Assembly (NCBI RefSeq): GCF_002077135.1
Contig: NZ_LDOS01000002.1
Coordinates: forward strand, 1,575,865-1,639,864
DNA: 64,000 bases
Origin: Metallibacterium scheffleri
GTDB lineage: Bacteria; Pseudomonadota; Gammaproteobacteria; Xanthomonadales; Rhodanobacteraceae
Direction of reading: 5' to 3'
The translations under genes and the position numbers were made by a program. The notes under the pieces are model-generated. The model made no database searches. It was not told the DNA's origin and saw nothing but the letters and a program-made list of their open reading frames with translations. Position 1 is the first letter of the stretch. Every line of letters begins with the position of its first letter. This document shows positions 29,562 through 37,923 of the stretch, piece after piece.

Positions 29562-29924
29562 TCACACGCGGATGATGTCGCGCTTGATCGAATAGAGGAT
29601 GGCGATCACGTCGTTGCGGGTGTCCGCATCCAGTCCGTGTTTTTCCATCGCCCCGACGATGTCGTCCATCACCGCCAGGTATTCCTGCTCGCTGATATTC
29701 ATGCCTCTGTGGGCCGCGAGCATGTCCCGGCCCGTGTAAGCTTCCGGGCCGCCAGATCCAGAACAGAAGAATTCGCGCGCCATGCGTTTGGCGTGCTGCA
29801 GATCCTTGATGTTCTCGAAGCGGGTTTTGACGACGGGATTGACCAGATGCGCGGCGATCACATCGTCAACGAGAGAAGCGATGCCGGGCGCACCGCCCAG
29901 GCGTTCATAAAGTATCGCGGTCAT
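29562..29924 (-). CDS. Group 1 truncated haemoglobin
   Basis: A 120-residue haem protein of the trHb group I type (TAILYERLGGAPGIASLVDD). The proximal His lies in MLAAHRGMNISEQEY and a Phe-rich distal pocket surrounds REFFCSGSGG. Such proteins bind O2 or NO and are often linked to NO detoxification. It is near the fap genes on the same strand, 250 bp downstream of fapF, but a common transcript is not evident. Family secure; role general. Confidence 0.88.
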   Translation of the reverse strand: MTAILYERLGGAPGIASLVDDVIAAHLVNPVVKTRFENIKDLQHAKRMAREFFCSGSGGPEAYTGRDMLAAHRGMNISEQEYLAVMDDIVGAMEKHGLDADTRNDVIAILYSIKRDIIRV

Positions 29925-30174: not shown

Positions 30175-31554
30175 TCACAGCGTGAACGGCAACTTGGCGG
30201 TGATGCTGAAATCCGGTGCGTCGGGTGTCAGGCCGATACCCAGATTGCCCACAAAAGTCATGCTTTCGCTGAGCGCATAGGTCATGCCGATGCCAAATGT
30301 CGCAGCGTTGCCGGAGCTGCCGATGATGCCTTGCCACACGCCGGTAGCATCGGGGCGAATCCTGGCACTGCTGTTGAGCCGCTCCGAGAAACTCATGCTC
30401 AGGCTCATGCGCTCGTTCAAGGCAAAAGCCACACCGATACCGTAGTTGAGCGCGTTGCCGAGGTCGACCTTGCCCGGGCTGACCGTATCCGGGCTGTTAT
30501 CCAGATCGGAAAAGTGCTTCTTGAAGGTATGGGTGACGCTGGCATTGGCGAACAGGATTGCCGGATCCAGTGTTTTCAACATCGAAGCGCCAAAGTTGAT
30601 GCTCCAGACGCCCTGCCCGGTGGGCTGTTTGGTCGGCACAGCGAAGCGGATGAAGTCGTCGTTGTCGCGCTCGAGCACGGTCCATGGAATGCCGTAAGGC
30701 GCCTGTCCGGTGGGCATGCCGACGCTGGCATTGAGAGCGATTTCAGGCCGCGCGGTTGTCTCTGGAAACAAGCGATAACTTGCGCCTGCGGTGACATCAC
30801 CGATGGCCACATCACCGCCCACGCCAGCCTCGGCCACAGCGGCCGCTGAGCCGCCGGCACCGCCTTTCTGGTAGGTGGTCCAGCGCTGCACCATGGGAAC
30901 TTCGATGCTGGCGGAAAGGTCGCGGGTGATGCCTTTGCGCGCGGCAAAGGTATAAGTGAATGTGTCGGATGCGACATCCTCGACCGCGATGCTGCCAAGG
31001 AATATCGCGTCGAGGGCGAGGAACCCGTTGAGCGTGAGTTGCTTGCGGTCGTATCTCGCGTAGTTGAGGCCGACTTCGAGCGTCAATGGCTGGTTAAACA
31101 GCACATGCTGCTGTTGCAATACATCCTCGACGCTGCGCGATGTGGGCTCCTGGCGCGTGCTGCCCTCGCTGCTGACCAGCGTTTCACTGCTGCTGGTCGC
31201 GGTTGCTGCCTGTGCCGCCCCCGCCGCCACGCCAATACCTGCCACGCCAGTCGTGGCTGCGGGCTTGCCCCCCTGTTGAATAGCCTGTACCCGCGCCACG
31301 CCCTCCTGCGCCTGCACGCGCGCGGTCAGCGCCTGCAAGCGGATCTCCAACTCGCGCAGCTTGCGGACTTCGTCAGCGTAACGCGACTTGAGTGCCTGCA
31401 TCTCGCGGGTGATTGCCTGCATGTCCTGGGTGTTCTCGGCGGCGGCGGTACCTCCGGCCTGCTGCGTCTGCTGCGCCGCTACTGATGCGCTGGCGGCGAG
31501 TGTCACTGCCACCAATGCCAACAACGCGCCTGTTTTGATCTTGCGCATGGTCAT
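30175..31554 (-). CDS. fapF: FapF-like outer-membrane amyloid secretion channel
   Basis: A 459-residue protein with a signal peptide (ALLALVAVTLAASASVAA), an N-terminal coiled coil at about 40-90 (EMQALKSRYADEVRKLRELE), an Ala/Ser/Thr-rich linker and a C-terminal beta-barrel (for example LFPETTARPEIALNASVGMP) ending in Phe-Thr-Leu. This is the architecture of FapF, the trimeric pore that exports Fap amyloid subunits in Pseudomonas. Last gene of the operon, in the FapF position. Name from architecture and synteny rather than close identity; a generic barrel protein is the alternative. Confidence 0.78.
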   Translation of the reverse strand: MTMRKIKTGALLALVAVTLAASASVAAQQTQQAGGTAAAENTQDMQAITREMQALKSRYADEVRKLRELEIRLQALTARVQAQEGVARVQAIQQGGKPAATTGVAGIGVAAGAAQAATATSSSETLVSSEGSTRQEPTSRSVEDVLQQQHVLFNQPLTLEVGLNYARYDRKQLTLNGFLALDAIFLGSIAVEDVASDTFTYTFAARKGITRDLSASIEVPMVQRWTTYQKGGAGGSAAAVAEAGVGGDVAIGDVTAGASYRLFPETTARPEIALNASVGMPTGQAPYGIPWTVLERDNDDFIRFAVPTKQPTGQGVWSINFGASMLKTLDPAILFANASVTHTFKKHFSDLDNSPDTVSPGKVDLGNALNYGIGVAFALNERMSLSMSFSERLNSSARIRPDATGVWQGIIGSSGNAATFGIGMTYALSESMTFVGNLGIGLTPDAPDFSITAKLPFTL

Positions 31555-31596
31555 CGTCGTCCCCTGTAGAGTGTTGCTCGCATATGTGTTGATGAC

Positions 31597-32385
31597 TCAG
31601 TGCCCACCAATGCCCTTCAATTGCCCCAACGCCTGCGCCACGCTCTGTTGCAGCAACTGGCTCGAACCCTGCATCGGCTGCACCAGGGTGATGCGCAATT
31701 GGTTGGATACGTCATGTCCATCGCCGAGCAGAGCGACGGTTTGCAGCACCGCGCCATTGCCCGATGCATCGCCACGGATCATCTGGCGCAGGCTGCCTTG
31801 GTCATCGATTCCCAGCGTCACCGCCATGCCGTCTGCCTGCAGCGCCGCACTGGCGTTGGCACCGTCCATGCTCAATGCCGTGTTGGCGCCGACGCCGTTG
31901 CCCGCGCCTGTGGGCAGGGTGTTGGTCAGGTGCAGCTCGGTGCTGTTGCCAGCATTGTTGAAGTCGCCGACGATCTGGATGCCTTGCTCGATACCGCTGA
32001 CGTTATCCAAGCCACTGGCATCAATCGTCCGATGGCTGGTGTCGACCAGCACACCGCCAGAGCTGCCCTGCACGATGCTGACGGTTGGCACGAAGCTGAC
32101 CTGCGGCGTGCCTTTGGAAAAATCGAAACTGAGCAATGCGCTGCCACTGAGTACGCGTCCATCCGGGCTGTGCCAGGTGGACAGCATCTCGACGCCAAAA
32201 TAAAGCACCTGTCCGGCGCCGGTGACAAAGCGCCCGCGCATGGCATCGAGGGCAGGATCGGATATGGGCTGGATGTCTTGAGTAGCGGTGGGCACGCGTT
32301 CGCCCAGCAAGCCCTCATCGGCTGCTGCAGGCAAGGCTAGGACCGTGGCAAGAGCCAGTACAATCAAAGTCGGAATGCCGCGCAT
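31597..32385 (-). CDS. fapE: FapE-like minor amyloid-associated protein
   Basis: A 262-residue exported protein starting MRGIPTLIVLALATVLALPA, with GGAG seven bases upstream; a 13-codon extension is less likely. The mature part is Ser/Gly/Asn/Gln-rich (IQIVGDFNNAGNSTELHLTN; GAGNGVGANTALSMDGANAS) with a C-terminal helical stretch (LLQQSVAQALGQLKG). In Pseudomonas FapE is a minor fibre component secreted with FapC. The identification rests mainly on position between fapD and fapF and composition. Confidence 0.7.
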   Translation of the reverse strand: MRGIPTLIVLALATVLALPAAADEGLLGERVPTATQDIQPISDPALDAMRGRFVTGAGQVLYFGVEMLSTWHSPDGRVLSGSALLSFDFSKGTPQVSFVPTVSIVQGSSGGVLVDTSHRTIDASGLDNVSGIEQGIQIVGDFNNAGNSTELHLTNTLPTGAGNGVGANTALSMDGANASAALQADGMAVTLGIDDQGSLRQMIRGDASGNGAVLQTVALLGDGHDVSNQLRITLVQPMQGSSQLLQQSVAQALGQLKGIGGH

Positions 32386-32445
32386 GGTGGATCTCCAAGT
32401 TGTGCTGCGTCGACTCGACTGCACGCTGCGACTGCTTGCGCGCGC

Positions 32446-33159
32446 TCAGAACAGGTCGGCTTTGGTGAAACCGAAATCGATCAGTTCGGCATCGGTGATC
32501 GGGCCCTGACGCGAACCCAGCAGCGTGCGCGCGCTGGGTCCACCCTTGGCATCCAGCAACACCGAATTGCGATTGAAGCCCGAACCGATCACCACGAACA
32601 CCGCCTTGGAAGGCCAGGCGGCCATGAAATCGTTGAATGCCAGCGTCTTGTTGCCCAGCGCGGGATCAGCCAGATACACGCGATCACCAGCGATGCGCTT
32701 GAGCACAACAAAATGTTTGTAGCCCTTGGTGTCCAGCAGCACGATGCCGGGCACACGCAAACTACGCAGGCGCGGCTCGGACACTTTGTAGCCACGGCCG
32801 CGCATGCCCAGGCCTTCGACGTATTGCTTGATATCCAGCAGCGAGAAACCTTGTTTCTCGACCTTGCCTGGATCGGCCTTGGCCAGCATGCCGGCCATCA
32901 CCGTCCACTCGTTCACATCGATGTCGTAGGCGTACTTGAGCAAGGTAGCCAGAGCCGCCGCACCACAACTGAAGTCGGTCGCCTGCGGCACGATGCCGGT
33001 GAAGCGCGCCTCGCGCAGGCTGGTGACCTTGGCGCGATACACCTCGCCGGTAGGCTGCACGTTGCCGAAGCGAATATCGGCCGCGCGTGCGAAGGAGCCG
33101 CTACCGCCCGGTGCAAGCAGGCAAGCCAACAACACGGCAAACGGAATTTTGGCGTCCAT
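32446..33159 (-). CDS. fapD: FapD-like C39-family cysteine peptidase
   Basis: A 237-residue periplasmic papain-like protease of the C39 type, homologous to FapD of the Fap amyloid operon. Catalytic elements are Gln59 and Cys65 in VPQATDFSCGAAALATLL, His149 in GYKHFVVLKRI and Asp165 in YLADPALGNK. A signal peptide is at 1-27. FapD is needed to process or release subunits before export through FapF. Start 33159 is chosen over one 23 codons upstream since it begins at the signal. This is the best-conserved marker of the operon. Confidence 0.85.
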   Translation of the reverse strand: MDAKIPFAVLLACLLAPGGSGSFARAADIRFGNVQPTGEVYRAKVTSLREARFTGIVPQATDFSCGAAALATLLKYAYDIDVNEWTVMAGMLAKADPGKVEKQGFSLLDIKQYVEGLGMRGRGYKVSEPRLRSLRVPGIVLLDTKGYKHFVVLKRIAGDRVYLADPALGNKTLAFNDFMAAWPSKAVFVVIGSGFNRNSVLLDAKGGPSARTLLGSRQGPITDAELIDFGFTKADLF

Positions 33160-33235
33160 GAAGGCTCGATTCGCTGGATTCGATCGAAAAGCGGGGCAGC
33201 GAACTGCCCCGCCGGATACGTCGATCAATCAGCGA

Positions 33236-34588
33236 TTACTCAGCCCCGCCACCGCTGCTGCCGCCACCCGAAGAAGCCTGGGTGACTGCCAACGCGAGGG
33301 AGTTAGCCTGCTGGTTGCCGGTGCCTGAAGCGATGTTCACGCCGATGTTGCCTTGCGCGTTCTGCAGCGCAGAGCCACTCAGCGAGGCCGTGTTGGTGCT
33401 CATCACCGCGACATAGCTGTAGTCAACGATTTGCCCTGACAACGCTGCGCTCATCTCTTCAAGAGTGATTTCATCGTTGTTGTTCATGACCAGCGAACCA
33501 CCGTCGTTGCTGGGATCCATCGGATCATTGCCCGGGGTACGCACGATCGGGTTGCCGTTGATGTCGGTGCCCTGTGTGCTGGTATCCCAGTCAGTGTGGC
33601 CCAGCCACGGGCCATTGGTCGGATGCGCCGAAGTCGGCGTTTCACCCTGCGCCACGCCCCAATTGTCCGGGAACATGTTGTAGCGCTGGTCCGAGGTACC
33701 GATGGAGGTACCCATCACTTGGCCACCCTCGCCGCTGCCGCCCACCGTGCCGGTCAAGTTGATTGTGATCAAGTCCACGAACTGCTGGGTATAGCCCTCG
33801 TTGAGCGTGTAGTTGCCGCCCGAATCCTGCTTGCTGTTGACCGAGGCCGTGGCCATGCTGTTGGTCCCGGTCGAAGCCACCAGGTTGTTCTGCTGCTGGT
33901 TGTTGTTGCCCGCTGCGATGTTGACGCCGATGTTGCCCGTCGCATTCTGCAGTGCGTTACCACCGAGGTTGGCCATGTTGGTCTGGCCAAAGTTGCCGGT
34001 GGTATTGGCGGCGTTGACCTGCTCGACGAACACCTCCGAGTCGGCCATGGTGAAGGCGAACGAAGCGTCCGCCGCCGCCAATGCGGCCGCGTTGTGCTGC
34101 TGGTTGTTGTCGCCCGCTGCCACGTTCAGGCCGATATTGCCCTGTGCATTCTGGGCCGCGTCGTCAGCGATCGACGCATCGTTGGCCAGCAGATAGTTTT
34201 CACCATTGTTGCCGACATTGTGCTGGCGGTTGTCCACCACGGCGATCGCCGCTGAGTCGGTGTTGATCGCGCCGCTGACAGTCGGATTGCCGGTGATCGA
34301 GACATCGGTCAGCAGGCTCAGATCCTTGTTCATGCGCACGCGGCGGATCGAGGTGTCGGTATTGATGTCGACGTTCTCGTAGTACTGCACGTCGCCGTAG
34401 ATATAGGCACTCGCGTTGAGCAGATAGTTGCGGATCCAGTCTTGCTGGTCGAGGGTGTAGTTCACCGTCGTATTGACGGTGCAAGTACCACCGCAGCTGG
34501 GACCTTCCTGCGCGAACGCCGCTGGCGCAATGCTGCCGGCACCAGCAAGAATGGCCAGCGTGAGCAGGTTTCGTTTCAAGTTACGCAT
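33236..34588 (-). CDS. fapC: FapC-like major amyloid subunit with three imperfect repeats
   Basis: A 450-residue exported protein, Asn/Gln/Gly/Ala-rich, with a 26-residue signal peptide. Three imperfect repeats occur at about 145-170 (NAQGNIGLNVAAGDNNQQ), 211-236 (NATGNIGVNIAAGNNNQQ) and 407-432 (NAQGNIGVNIASGTGNQQ), separated by linkers of about 40 and 170 residues. This is the repeat-linker design of Fap amyloid subunits. A C-x3-C pair (SCGGTC, 32-36) sits after the signal, unlike the C-terminal CxxC of Pseudomonas FapC. The second linker carries a non-repetitive, Pro/Asp-rich insert. The major fibre protein is the most likely role. Confidence 0.83.
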   Translation of the reverse strand: MRNLKRNLLTLAILAGAGSIAPAAFAQEGPSCGGTCTVNTTVNYTLDQQDWIRNYLLNASAYIYGDVQYYENVDINTDTSIRRVRMNKDLSLLTDVSITGNPTVSGAINTDSAAIAVVDNRQHNVGNNGENYLLANDASIADDAAQNAQGNIGLNVAAGDNNQQHNAAALAAADASFAFTMADSEVFVEQVNAANTTGNFGQTNMANLGGNALQNATGNIGVNIAAGNNNQQQNNLVASTGTNSMATASVNSKQDSGGNYTLNEGYTQQFVDLITINLTGTVGGSGEGGQVMGTSIGTSDQRYNMFPDNWGVAQGETPTSAHPTNGPWLGHTDWDTSTQGTDINGNPIVRTPGNDPMDPSNDGGSLVMNNNDEITLEEMSAALSGQIVDYSYVAVMSTNTASLSGSALQNAQGNIGVNIASGTGNQQANSLALAVTQASSGGGSSGGGAE

Positions 34589-34623
34589 GATGCATCTCCT
34601 GTCGTTGGAATGGTTTCAGGCTT

Positions 34624-35259
34624 TCAACGGGGTGGCAGATCAACCGTGATGAGCAGGCGGTTGCCCGCGGTATTGCCCATCCCGGCGATCTGATTGAGTT
34701 GCACCACCCCCTCCGCCCCACGCAACGCCGTACCCGCAACGGACGCCGAGCGTGGCGAGGAAGATGGATTGGCTTGCGAACGGCCCCCCGCGGCACCGTT
34801 CGTTTGCGTGCCGAGGCCAGCCAGCCAGGTACTGGATGTCTGCTCCTCGATACCTTGTTGCGCCAGCGATACGGCGACCGCGATGGCGTTGGCCTCGCGA
34901 TTGCCGATACCACTGGCCTGATTGATGGAAATCAGCCCGCGCGCGCCGGATAACGCGTTGCCGCTGATGTCGGCGACCATCGCGTCGGGCACGCTGGCGC
35001 TCAGCGCACTGATGCGCTGGCGTTGTTCGATCTGGACATTTGCAAGCGGCCCGATGGCCAATGCCGCTGCGTTCGACTGAAGATTGCTGTCACCAGCGGC
35101 CAGATTCACCGCAATCGCGCCACTGGCGCCGGCCAGCGCATTGCCACCTATGCTGCTGGTGGTGAGATAACGCAACATCTCAGCGTAACCGTCCTGGGCC
35201 CTGGCGGTGGAGAGACCCAGCATCAGCAGAGCACATGCAACAGCGAAGAGGCGGACCAT
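34624..35259 (-). CDS. fapB: FapB-like minor amyloid subunit
   Basis: A 211-residue exported protein (signal 1-21) with three related repeats at about 40-68 (ALAGASGAIAVNLAAGDSNL), 101-129 (ALSGARGLISINQASGIGN) and 178-204 (ALRGAEGVVQLNQIAGMGNT). The spacing and the G-x-(I/V)-x-(I/V/L)-N pattern match the repeats of the downstream FapC-like protein. In Pseudomonas FapB is the nucleator of FapC. Its ATG overlaps the stop of the preceding gene (TGATG). Role by analogy. Confidence 0.78.
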   Translation of the reverse strand: MVRLFAVACALLMLGLSTARAQDGYAEMLRYLTTSSIGGNALAGASGAIAVNLAAGDSNLQSNAAALAIGPLANVQIEQRQRISALSASVPDAMVADISGNALSGARGLISINQASGIGNREANAIAVAVSLAQQGIEEQTSSTWLAGLGTQTNGAAGGRSQANPSSSPRSASVAGTALRGAEGVVQLNQIAGMGNTAGNRLLITVDLPPR

Positions 35260-35753
35260 CAGCCGCCACCCTTGATCACGCCAGCGCCTTGCAAGGCACC
35301 CGTGATCTGATTGCCGATGCTGCGCGTGATACCACCCACGCTACCCAGCACACCGCCCGGGCCACCTGAGTTGATCGCCGGCACGCGGCCACTACTGGAG
35401 CCGCTCTGCAGAAGATCCGCGCCGTGCAGCGCGCCGCCGACTGCGTTTTCGACCACGGCGCCCGGCGCTGCGCCGCTGATCGCGGCATACGCCGCGTCGT
35501 CCAACTCGAGATTGCCGAGCATGTCGCGCATCTCGGGGCGCACGCTGGGGTCAATGATGGTGGCCAGCCCCGGCGCTTGCATGCGTGTCGCGTGACGATC
35601 GGGCACGGCGCGCACCAACACGAACTCGCCGGGCTTGGTATTGACGCCGCGCCGGGCGCCCGCGGCTTCCACCGGGAGCGCCAACACGCTCAATACCAGC
35701 AGCAGAGCCAGCAACAACACCGAACTGATGAATATTCGAGGGAACTTGATCAC
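35259..35753 (-). CDS. fapA: FapA-like first gene of the amyloid operon
   Basis: A 164-residue protein that starts at GTG 35753 with AGGAGA five bases upstream, followed by a signal peptide (SSVLLLALLLVLSVLALPVE). The mature part has FVLVRAVPDRHATRMQAPGL and a Gly/Ser-rich C-terminus (GGPGGVLGSVGGITRSIGNQ). No clear family. Fap operons begin with a small exported FapA, which tunes the FapB/FapC ratio, and this gene occupies that place. It is directly downstream of the sigma-54 promoter and overlaps fapB. Confidence 0.62.
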   Translation of the reverse strand: MIKFPRIFISSVLLLALLLVLSVLALPVEAAGARRGVNTKPGEFVLVRAVPDRHATRMQAPGLATIIDPSVRPEMRDMLGNLELDDAAYAAISGAAPGAVVENAVGGALHGADLLQSGSSSGRVPAINSGGPGGVLGSVGGITRSIGNQITGALQGAGVIKGGG

Positions 35754-35781: not shown

Positions 35782-35796
35782 GCAAGCTTGATGCCA
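35782..35796 (-). promoter_or_regulatory. Sigma-54 (-24/-12) promoter of the fap operon
   Basis: On the minus strand the sequence TGGCATCAAGCTTGC matches the RpoN consensus TGGCAC-N5-TTGC in all but one position, with correct spacing. The -24 GG is at 35795-35794 and the -12 GC at 35783-35782. The predicted start (about 35771) lies 18 bp before the GTG of fapA. A sigma-54 activator gene lies immediately upstream, which supports the call. Confidence 0.82.
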
Positions 35797-36192: not shown

Positions 36193-37557
36193 TCAGGCAG
36201 CGCTGCCCAGAGATACCTGCAGCTTCTTGCACAGCCGATACAGGGTGACGCGAGATATGCCAAGACGCCGCGCGCACTCGCTCATGTTGTGGCGCGTTTC
36301 GCGCAGCGTTTGTTGGATCAATTCGCGCTCGGCCTGCTCGCGGGCATGATCCAGTGAGGGCGCGCAGCGGCCTTCTGCCAGATCGCTTTCCAGCTCAAGA
36401 TCCTGCGCGTGGATCAATCCGCCATCGCAGAGCACGGCTGCTCGACGCACGCGGTTCATCAGTTCGCGGACGTTGCCTGGCCATGGATGCAGGCTGATGG
36501 CATCGAGCGCCTCGCGACTGTAACCACGCGCACGCACACCATGTTCGCGCGCGAAGCGCTCGAGGAAATAACGCGCCAGCATTTCGGCGTCCTGTCCGCG
36601 CTCGCGCAGCGGCGGCATCCGCAGACGCAACACGTTGAGTCGGTAGTAGAGATCGGCGCGAAACTGGCCTTCGGCCACGGCGCGCTCCAGATCGACATGC
36701 GTGGCGGCGATGACGCGCACATCCAGGCGCAGGTGCTCATTGCCGCCGATACGCTCGATGGTGCCTTCCTGCAGGAAACGCAGCAGATTGACTTGCGCGT
36801 CGAGTGGCAGGTCGCCGATTTCATCAAGGAATACCGTGCCCTGCTGGGCCGACTCCAGCTTGCCGATCTTGCGCGCGTTGGCGCCAGTGAATGCACCACG
36901 CTCATGACCAAACAACTCCGACTGCACCAGTTTTTCCGGCAGGGCGCCGCAGTTGATTGCGACAAACGGACCGCGTGCGCGCGCTGACAGACGATGCAGA
37001 TTGCGTGCCGCGACTTCCTTGCCGGTACCTGATTCGCCGGTAATCAGCACCGGTACGTTGACCGCGGCCAGCTTGCGCACCTGACCGTGCATCTCCACCA
37101 GCGCATCACTGGCACCGACCATGCCATCCAGCCCCAGCGCGGCCTGCTGCTCGGCATTGGCGGCTTGCGGCCCCAGCTTGGCCATGCCCCAGGCGTGTCC
37201 TAGCGCAGCCAGTAGCCGATTGATGTCCACCGGTTGCGTGCAGAAATCGAAAAAGCTGCCATAGATGACTTCGCATACGTGCTTGTCGGTCAATGCATGC
37301 TCGCTGACATGGGCCAGCCACTCGGTGGATGGATGCGATGCGATCAAACGCTCGACCCGGCGCAGCATCGGCGCCTGTCCGGCACCCAGATCGAGCAGTG
37401 CGACGTGGGCATCGTGGCGCCGCAGCGCTTCGGGTACATGGTCGAGTTGCTCGACCTCGACGCGCCTCCAGCCGGCATCGCGCAAGGCCTTGTCCACTGA
37501 TGGCGCGAAAGCGCCGTAATGCACGAAATCGCGTGCGACCGGATGCACCGAAGCCAT
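36193..37557 (-). CDS. Sigma-54-dependent enhancer-binding regulator (VpsR/FleQ-like)
   Basis: A 454-residue activator. An N-terminal receiver-like domain (1-125) keeps an Asp at the phosphoacceptor-like position (VALLDL, D56). A AAA+ domain follows with Walker A GESGTGKE (174-181), Walker B TVFLDEIGDL and the sigma-54 contact loop GAFTGA (221-226). A Fis-type HTH (MSECARRLGISRVTLYRL) is at the end. Such VpsR-like proteins often read c-di-GMP and control matrix genes. ATG 37557 is favoured by GGGGAGA 7 nt upstream; ATG 37572 is the longest start. It is upstream of fap on the same strand and is its likely activator. Confidence 0.88.
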   Translation of the reverse strand: MASVHPVARDFVHYGAFAPSVDKALRDAGWRRVEVEQLDHVPEALRRHDAHVALLDLGAGQAPMLRRVERLIASHPSTEWLAHVSEHALTDKHVCEVIYGSFFDFCTQPVDINRLLAALGHAWGMAKLGPQAANAEQQAALGLDGMVGASDALVEMHGQVRKLAAVNVPVLITGESGTGKEVAARNLHRLSARARGPFVAINCGALPEKLVQSELFGHERGAFTGANARKIGKLESAQQGTVFLDEIGDLPLDAQVNLLRFLQEGTIERIGGNEHLRLDVRVIAATHVDLERAVAEGQFRADLYYRLNVLRLRMPPLRERGQDAEMLARYFLERFAREHGVRARGYSREALDAISLHPWPGNVRELMNRVRRAAVLCDGGLIHAQDLELESDLAEGRCAPSLDHAREQAERELIQQTLRETRHNMSECARRLGISRVTLYRLCKKLQVSLGSAA

Positions 37558-37923
37558 GGCCATTCTCCCCATCCTCCCCGAGCCGGCAGCGCGCCTATGC
37601 GTTGCGTGGGGAGAGCAACCCTAATCCTGAACCCGAAACATTACAATCCGTAATGTTGGCGTGGCGCAGCCTGCTGATCTGCCATTCAGCTACTGGCCGC
37701 GCTCTTGCGCATGGCACCCATCCGCATGATCTGCAGCACGGCCAGATTGCCGCGATGCGTCATATACGTCTGGCTTACGCGCGATTTCAGTGACCTTTCC
37801 CGCAGGCGCGCGTCCTCGCTCCGCGAATCGCTGAGCGTAGGACGTTGTGCCAAAGACAGTGGCTCGCTGTCAGTCCGCCCATGCGAAAAGCGGGCGCAGT
37901 GGCGCGGTGGCGGATGCTGCCGA
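37558..37923. other. Intergenic region upstream of the sigma-54 activator
   Basis: A 366-bp gap between the regulator start and the rimO stop. It contains the perfect 8-5-8 palindrome at 37637-37657. A possible 92-residue minus-strand frame (37686-37964) overlaps rimO and has no signal, motif or coding character. I see no RNA gene or terminator. Confidence 0.5.
37637..37657. promoter_or_regulatory. Perfect 8-5-8 palindrome upstream of the sigma-54 activator gene
   Basis: AACATTAC-AATCC-GTAATGTT has fully complementary 8-bp arms and a 5-bp spacer. Its centre is 90 bp upstream of the regulator start codon. A similar 21-bp site precedes the fap promoter, so autoregulation and fap control by one protein is likely. 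The symmetry is observed; the binding protein is inferred. Confidence 0.55.

Follow-up and report, generated by a model that had tools for sequence, protein, structure and literature searches.

A putative complete Fap functional-amyloid operon in Metallibacterium scheffleri and a candidate FapD cut motif in FapE

The subject of this analysis is a cluster of six genes from Metallibacterium scheffleri (Gammaproteobacteria, Xanthomonadales, Rhodanobacteraceae). It lies on contig NZ_LDOS01000002.1 of assembly GCF_002077135.1, within a 64,000-nucleotide stretch (contig positions 1,575,865 to 1,639,864) that we call the window and whose numbering is used throughout. Six open reading frames (ORFs) occupy the minus strand one after the other between 35753 and 30175, with intergenic gaps of -1, 35, 76, 60 and 42 bases (Table 1). 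A preliminary description of this DNA had read them as a fapABCDEF operon, and each of the six proteins indeed matches its own NCBIfam Fap model in the place and on the strand so assigned, with E-values ranging from 3.8e-5 to 4.1e-112. Since six proteins fall on six separate Fap models in A-F order, chance is excluded. Judging by these matches, the locus is, with high confidence, a complete Fap functional-amyloid operon belonging to the known Fap family. The NCBIfam models were needed here: with Pfam alone, the only assignments above cut-off were the C39 peptidase and a family of porin-like proteins, and fapB, fapC and fapE drew none. Two starts were chosen inside longer frames, fapE being best read from the ATG at 32385 (within a longer GTG ORF) and fapD from the ATG at 33159 (within a longer TTG ORF).

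Table 1. Features of the fap locus and its control region (window coordinates)
Feature	Position	Strand	Basis
Sigma-54 activator with VpsR domain, upstream of fapA, same direction	36193..37572	-	Pfam VpsR E 3.2e-16, Sigma54_activat E 2.3e-69, HTH_8 E 7.7e-14
-24/-12 (sigma-54 type) promoter box TGGCATCAAGCTTGC	35782..35796	-	exact match to TGGCAYN5TTGC, before fapA
fapA, putative chaperone, 164 residues, GTG start	35259..35753	-	NF058617 E 3.8e-5, 24.1 bits (cut-off 110)
fapB, minor subunit and putative nucleator, 211 residues, three repeats	34624..35259	-	NF058557 E 2.3e-24, 86.1 bits (cut-off 190)
fapC, major fibre subunit, 450 residues, three repeats	33236..34588	-	NF058558 E 1.3e-48, 166.3 bits (cut-off 195)
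FapC N-terminal C32-GGT-C36 (CGGTC)	34481..34495	-	directly after the signal
Linker joining FapC repeats 2 and 3, residues 240-399	33392..33871	-	160 residues by HMM envelopes
fapD, exported C39 peptidase, 237 residues	32446..33159	-	NF058616 E 4.6e-71, 238.7 bits (cut-off 330)
fapE, 262 residues	31597..32385	-	NF058559 E 4.2e-20, 72 bits (cut-off 250)
FapE L46-D-A-M-R-G-R52, predicted FapD recognition/cut motif	32230..32250	-	strict pattern and alignment with sister RGG proteins
fapF, outer-membrane channel, N-terminal coiled coil, 459 residues	30175..31554	-	NF058560 E 4.1e-112, 375 bits (cut-off 700)

The features of the single proteins agree with this assignment. The preliminary description had seen two exported proteins with three related repeats each, and a profile hidden Markov model (HMM), employed in place of a hand-made pattern that missed many repeats, places them at residues 34-68, 96-130 and 171-206 of FapB and at residues 137-172, 206-239 and 400-435 of FapC. 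FapC also matches the solved FapC fibril entries 9nqd (E 3.9e-18) and 9u4u (E 5.8e-18) of the PDB. Counted from the ATG at 33159, FapD has the Cys65, His149 and Asp165 previously ascribed to it, and this C39 triad is kept in all 58 aligned FapDs. The last gene was correctly taken for fapF: its product matches NF058560 over residues 30-457 and, at residues 138-457, the barrel of solved FapF (PDB 5o65, E 2.3e-80). The search with FapD and FapF profiles that had been proposed as a check thus returned highly significant matches for both (Table 1).

To place the operon among its relatives, we compared 46 loci. They come from 37 genomes of the order with a FapF match above 300 bits (the genome studied here included; 299 were searched), one family genome (G310), seven genus genomes found by FapC and four named records, the duplicates L059, L073 and L076 (of L002, L005 and L003) being left out of the counts. 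The A-B-C-D-E-F order is kept in 45 of the 46; the remaining locus is cut by a contig end after C. Within Metallibacterium, a FapC match was found in 9 of 13 genomes, including our own. The four genomes that gave none are 77-94% complete, and the genus is mostly represented by drafts. The nearest relative, L003, has FapC repeats with 94-100% identity to ours; the nearest named locus, from Stenotrophomonas sp. YIM B06876 (L004), shares the A-F order and has a FapF 51% identical to ours. Rhodanobacter and Stenotrophomonas were already named as Fap carriers in 2013 (Dueholm et al., PMC3792158), and a later survey added more genera (PMC6173800). Our operon thus probably sits in a lineage near established carriers. 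By itself, it does no more than extend a known system by one genus.

Upstream of fapA lies a gene for a regulator with a VpsR domain, a sigma-54 AAA+ domain that keeps the GAFTGA motif and a Fis-type helix-turn-helix; it matches the solved VpsR structure 7v2b with an E-value of 2.9e-73. It is the sole VpsR-domain match in the genome, which also contains one rpoN. A match to this regulator adjoins fap in 43 of the 46 loci. In 30 of these it stands downstream in reverse orientation, 7 have it upstream and reversed, and the 6 in which it lies upstream and points the same way as fap all belong to Metallibacterium. Between the regulator and fapA there is a -24/-12 box. With 0.67 exact matches to TGGCAYN5TTGC expected by chance in the window and one observed, it is the position directly before fapA that counts. 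Allowing one mismatch at most, 40 of the 46 loci have such a box around the start of fapA, as opposed to about 0.015 per locus in mononucleotide shuffles, although the loci are related and these counts are not independent trials; six loci (L005, L037, L054, L065, L066 and L068) gave no box at this threshold. The scan ran from 600 bases upstream of the longest ORF start to 200 bases inside it, so that the distances vary. Control of fap by BrfA and RpoN, with an activator and a box arranged in this manner, is described for Pseudomonas fluorescens PF07 in PMC9207406, and PMC13101488 presents BrfA as a sensor of cyclic di-GMP (c-di-GMP). Overall, the comparison indicates that a linked activator and a sigma-54 box of the P. 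fluorescens type have been kept across this order. The functional unit probably extends beyond the 30175-35753 initially delimited and takes in both the promoter box and the regulator gene.

Several observations weigh against the reading of the locus as a Fap operon under such control. None of the six proteins reaches the curated (equivalog) cut-off of its NCBIfam model, and the FapA match, at 24.1 bits, is weak. FapB has no significant match in the PDB (the best has an E-value of 0.2, with a FapC entry at 0.32). AlphaFold, run with five-row alignments, produced models too poor to speak either for or against a fibre fold: the mean predicted local distance difference test (pLDDT) score was 31.4 for FapC and 51.5 for FapB. 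Foldseek, with this FapB model as the only one searched, found no match at an E-value below 5. As to control, no regulator was seen in the sequence around three of the 46 loci, all three from the genus itself, and the likening of our regulator to BrfA is drawn by analogy only. The cut-offs deserve a comment. The FapF model is matched at an E-value of 0.001 in 89 of 299 sampled genomes of the order and in 69 of 369 of the class, and its cut-off is passed in none of either set; hence, the cut-offs delimit a narrow group and not the family.

The word divergent, with which the preliminary description had labelled the operon, is overstated, since gene order and linker are common among relatives and the cysteine pair is so within the genus. 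As had been noted, repeats 2 and 3 of FapC are separated by a long linker, which measures 160 residues by HMM envelopes instead of roughly 170. It is covered to at least 70% in 36 of 48 FapCs and is thus a lineage-wide trait. Scattered residues of it (Q..N...D.W and Hp..G...GH.D.D...Q) are kept in these 36 proteins; conceivably, this segment is a small domain or metal site. The described CxxxC behind the signal and the lack of a C-terminal CxxC, a frequent though not general trait of FapCs, hold as well, C32 and C36 being the only cysteines of FapC. An N-terminal pair is found in every FapC of the nine non-duplicate Metallibacterium loci, but the number of intervening residues is three in two loci, five in one, six in four and nine in two; given such variable spacing, what is conserved is not CxxxC as such. 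Of 59 FapCs in the comparison, 24 lack cysteine altogether and 7 bear a CxxC behind the last repeat, but the ORF starts of relatives were left unrefined, which makes counts of N-terminal cysteines beyond the genus rough. FapC linkers are described as highly variable (Dueholm et al. 2013, PMC3792158), and the FapC of P. putida F1 likewise lacks a C-terminal CxxC, its linker being some 260 residues long (PMC3684753). With the linker lineage-wide and the cysteine pair genus-wide, the emphasis on divergence was too strong.

Some relatives depart from this layout in other ways. In L069 and L070, the operon holds two tandem FapC-like genes with a C-terminal CxxC, together with a FapE in which SGK replaces RGR. 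In L097, a FapC-like ORF has ten repeats and no separate FapB match is present; repeat expansion is reported from Acidithiobacillus and Vibrio in PMC3792158.

The comparison drew our attention to the N-terminal part of FapE. Across 45 loci of the order, FapE carries D..L..MRGR followed by FGV, with D, L, M, R, G and R each conserved in at least 90%. The strict pattern L..[MLIV]RG[GRASK] occurs in 49 of 58 FapEs, whereas it is found in none of 50 FapAs, none of 58 FapBs, none of 58 FapCs, 4 of 58 FapDs and 2 of 59 FapFs. Of the nine FapEs that depart from it, six have M at -7, one has Q at -4 and two have S at -3; the pattern widened accordingly was read by eye after these misses had been viewed. 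Beyond the order, plasmid records were searched by FapF; of 15 that matched, three were examined. The FapE of Aeromonas caviae reads ELAHLRGR. C39 and FapF-like genes are present in Cupriavidus metallidurans and Photobacterium sp. GJ3, but with neither a FapE match nor an ORF with the motif in the stretch checked, which argues against the universality of the motif in such systems. The spacing of Leu, Met and Gly in the FapE motif fits the double-glycine leader rule for C39 substrates.

A second line of evidence comes from a sister type of locus, which pairs a C39 peptidase with a FapF-like channel scoring about 133-170 bits against the FapF model and is common in the order; none was found in our own genome. 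In 17 of 21 such loci examined, there is a protein with L..[MLV]RGG followed by S[FL]G; L112 has a like motif with I at -4, while L102, L104 and L107 have no fitting RGG protein. On the opposite strand, the strict pattern appeared in 4 of 589 ORFs. When profiles of FapE and of the sister RGG proteins were compared, only 48 columns around the motif aligned (probability 95.9%, E 5.5e-9), although part of this score is built in, the sister set having been chosen by the motif. As an example of the type, L079:3998-8653 encodes a C39 peptidase, a FapF-like channel (151 bits with the FapF model) and a glycine-rich exported protein of 465 residues without an NCBIfam match; L079 and L101-L120, all from other genomes of the order, represent the type, with exported partners carrying L..[ML]RGG motifs.

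Such a pattern induces us to propose that FapE has, behind its Sec signal, a double-glycine leader of degenerate form (typically L-x-x-[MLI]-R-G-[RK]), which FapD would recognise and cut. FapD would then be a stand-alone periplasmic C39 peptidase with a preference for Arg or Lys over Gly, related to the sister C39/FapF-like export system with the classical RGG in its exported partner. We regard the arguments for and against this proposal as evenly balanced, and the more precise prediction that the cut falls after Arg52 has, in our opinion, about an even chance of being right. In the literature, the first ~70 residues of FapE were missing in mass spectrometry and the target of FapD was called unclear (Rouse et al. 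2017, PMC5557850). In a 2025 review (PMC12822426), FapD is "thought" to act on the N-terminus of FapE and on the periplasmic region of FapF. The sections of the Fap literature covered here, including those of PMC12822426, PMC6173800 and PMC5557850, name no cut site of FapD.

There are, of course, other ways to interpret these data. FapD might mainly target the periplasmic linker of FapF or act as a chaperone, with the FapE motif serving another use, e.g., docking to FapF. This is a serious contender, to which we would give somewhat less than an even chance. GG and GA motifs are noted in PMC5557850 both in FapE and near the FapF construct, the FapF linker yielded no peptides in mass spectrometry according to the same paper, and FapE and FapF are both named as supposed FapD targets (PMC12822426). 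Besides, residue -1 of the FapE motif is Arg or Lys, as opposed to Gly or Ala in the usual C39 substrates (PMC5557850). What speaks for a cut in FapE is that the strict motif is, as counted above, nearly confined to FapE as against FapF, that its true RGG version stands in the sister C39 loci, and that, in PMC5557850, FapE is the protein with its N-terminus wholly missing, while the catalytic Cys of FapD is needed for secretion.

The identity of the operon as a whole is much less in question. It could belong to some other system of C39 peptidase and outer-membrane channel, either a Fil-type putative pilus or one of the FapD/FapF-like sister loci, exporting surface proteins that are not amyloids. 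FilB and FilC models do match the peptidase (115.7 bits) and the channel (88.9 bits), and the sister type is common in the order, but the Fap models outscore them at 238.7 and 375 bits, and the operon encodes FapB and FapC with amyloid repeats, which sister locus L079 lacks save for one weak match (6.2 bits). We consider this extremely improbable. That the operon is decayed or silent and no longer yields fibres seems very unlikely to us: scores under the model cut-offs would be compatible with it, but all six genes have an open frame, FapD retains its C39 triad, the promoter box, the activator and rpoN are all there, and the FapC repeats are nearly or fully identical to those of L003.

Returning to the complete Fap operon as the preferred reading, we can sketch how it might work, with export, fibres, c-di-GMP control and the biofilm role taken over from the Pseudomonas literature. 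An activator of the VpsR/BrfA type, probably responsive to c-di-GMP, would turn on the sigma-54 promoter before fapA. Sec would carry the Fap proteins over the inner membrane, where FapA may chaperone the subunits and periplasmic FapD may mature at least FapE, most likely at L-x-x-M-R-G-R. The FapF channel would release FapB, FapC and FapE, and FapC, nucleated by FapB, would polymerise into cross-beta fibres of the biofilm matrix. By this analogy, a biofilm amyloid role of the operon is very likely. If the FapE proposal is true, it settles which Fap protein FapD matures, and where; the motif offers an exact and cheaply testable cut site, one lead that is maybe worth a test at the bench.

It is also worth mentioning a neighbour of the operon. 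A truncated globin gene of bacterial type (29562-29924, Bac_globin E 2.2e-11) lies on the same strand 250 bases downstream of fapF. Of the other loci searched, L002 (with its duplicate L059) was the only one to show a globin match downstream of fapF.

Finally, we would like to compare the locus with the closest known systems. With fapABCDEF of Pseudomonas, it shares the six families, their order, the repeat type, the C39 triad and, by sequence, the FapF fold, and differs from it in scoring under the curated cut-offs and in a FapC that has two N-terminal cysteines instead of a C-terminal CxxC. Stenotrophomonas sp. YIM B06876 has its regulator downstream and reversed, unlike the upstream, same-direction gene found here. 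The BrfA/RpoN pair of P. fluorescens PF07, as presented in PMC9207406 and PMC13101488, is similar in the sigma-54 activator adjoining fap and in the -24/-12 box before fapA, and dissimilar in the position of the regulator gene. The Fil putative pilus system (FilB, FilC) likewise combines a C39 peptidase with a FapF-like channel, but the Fil models score our proteins much more weakly than the Fap models do.

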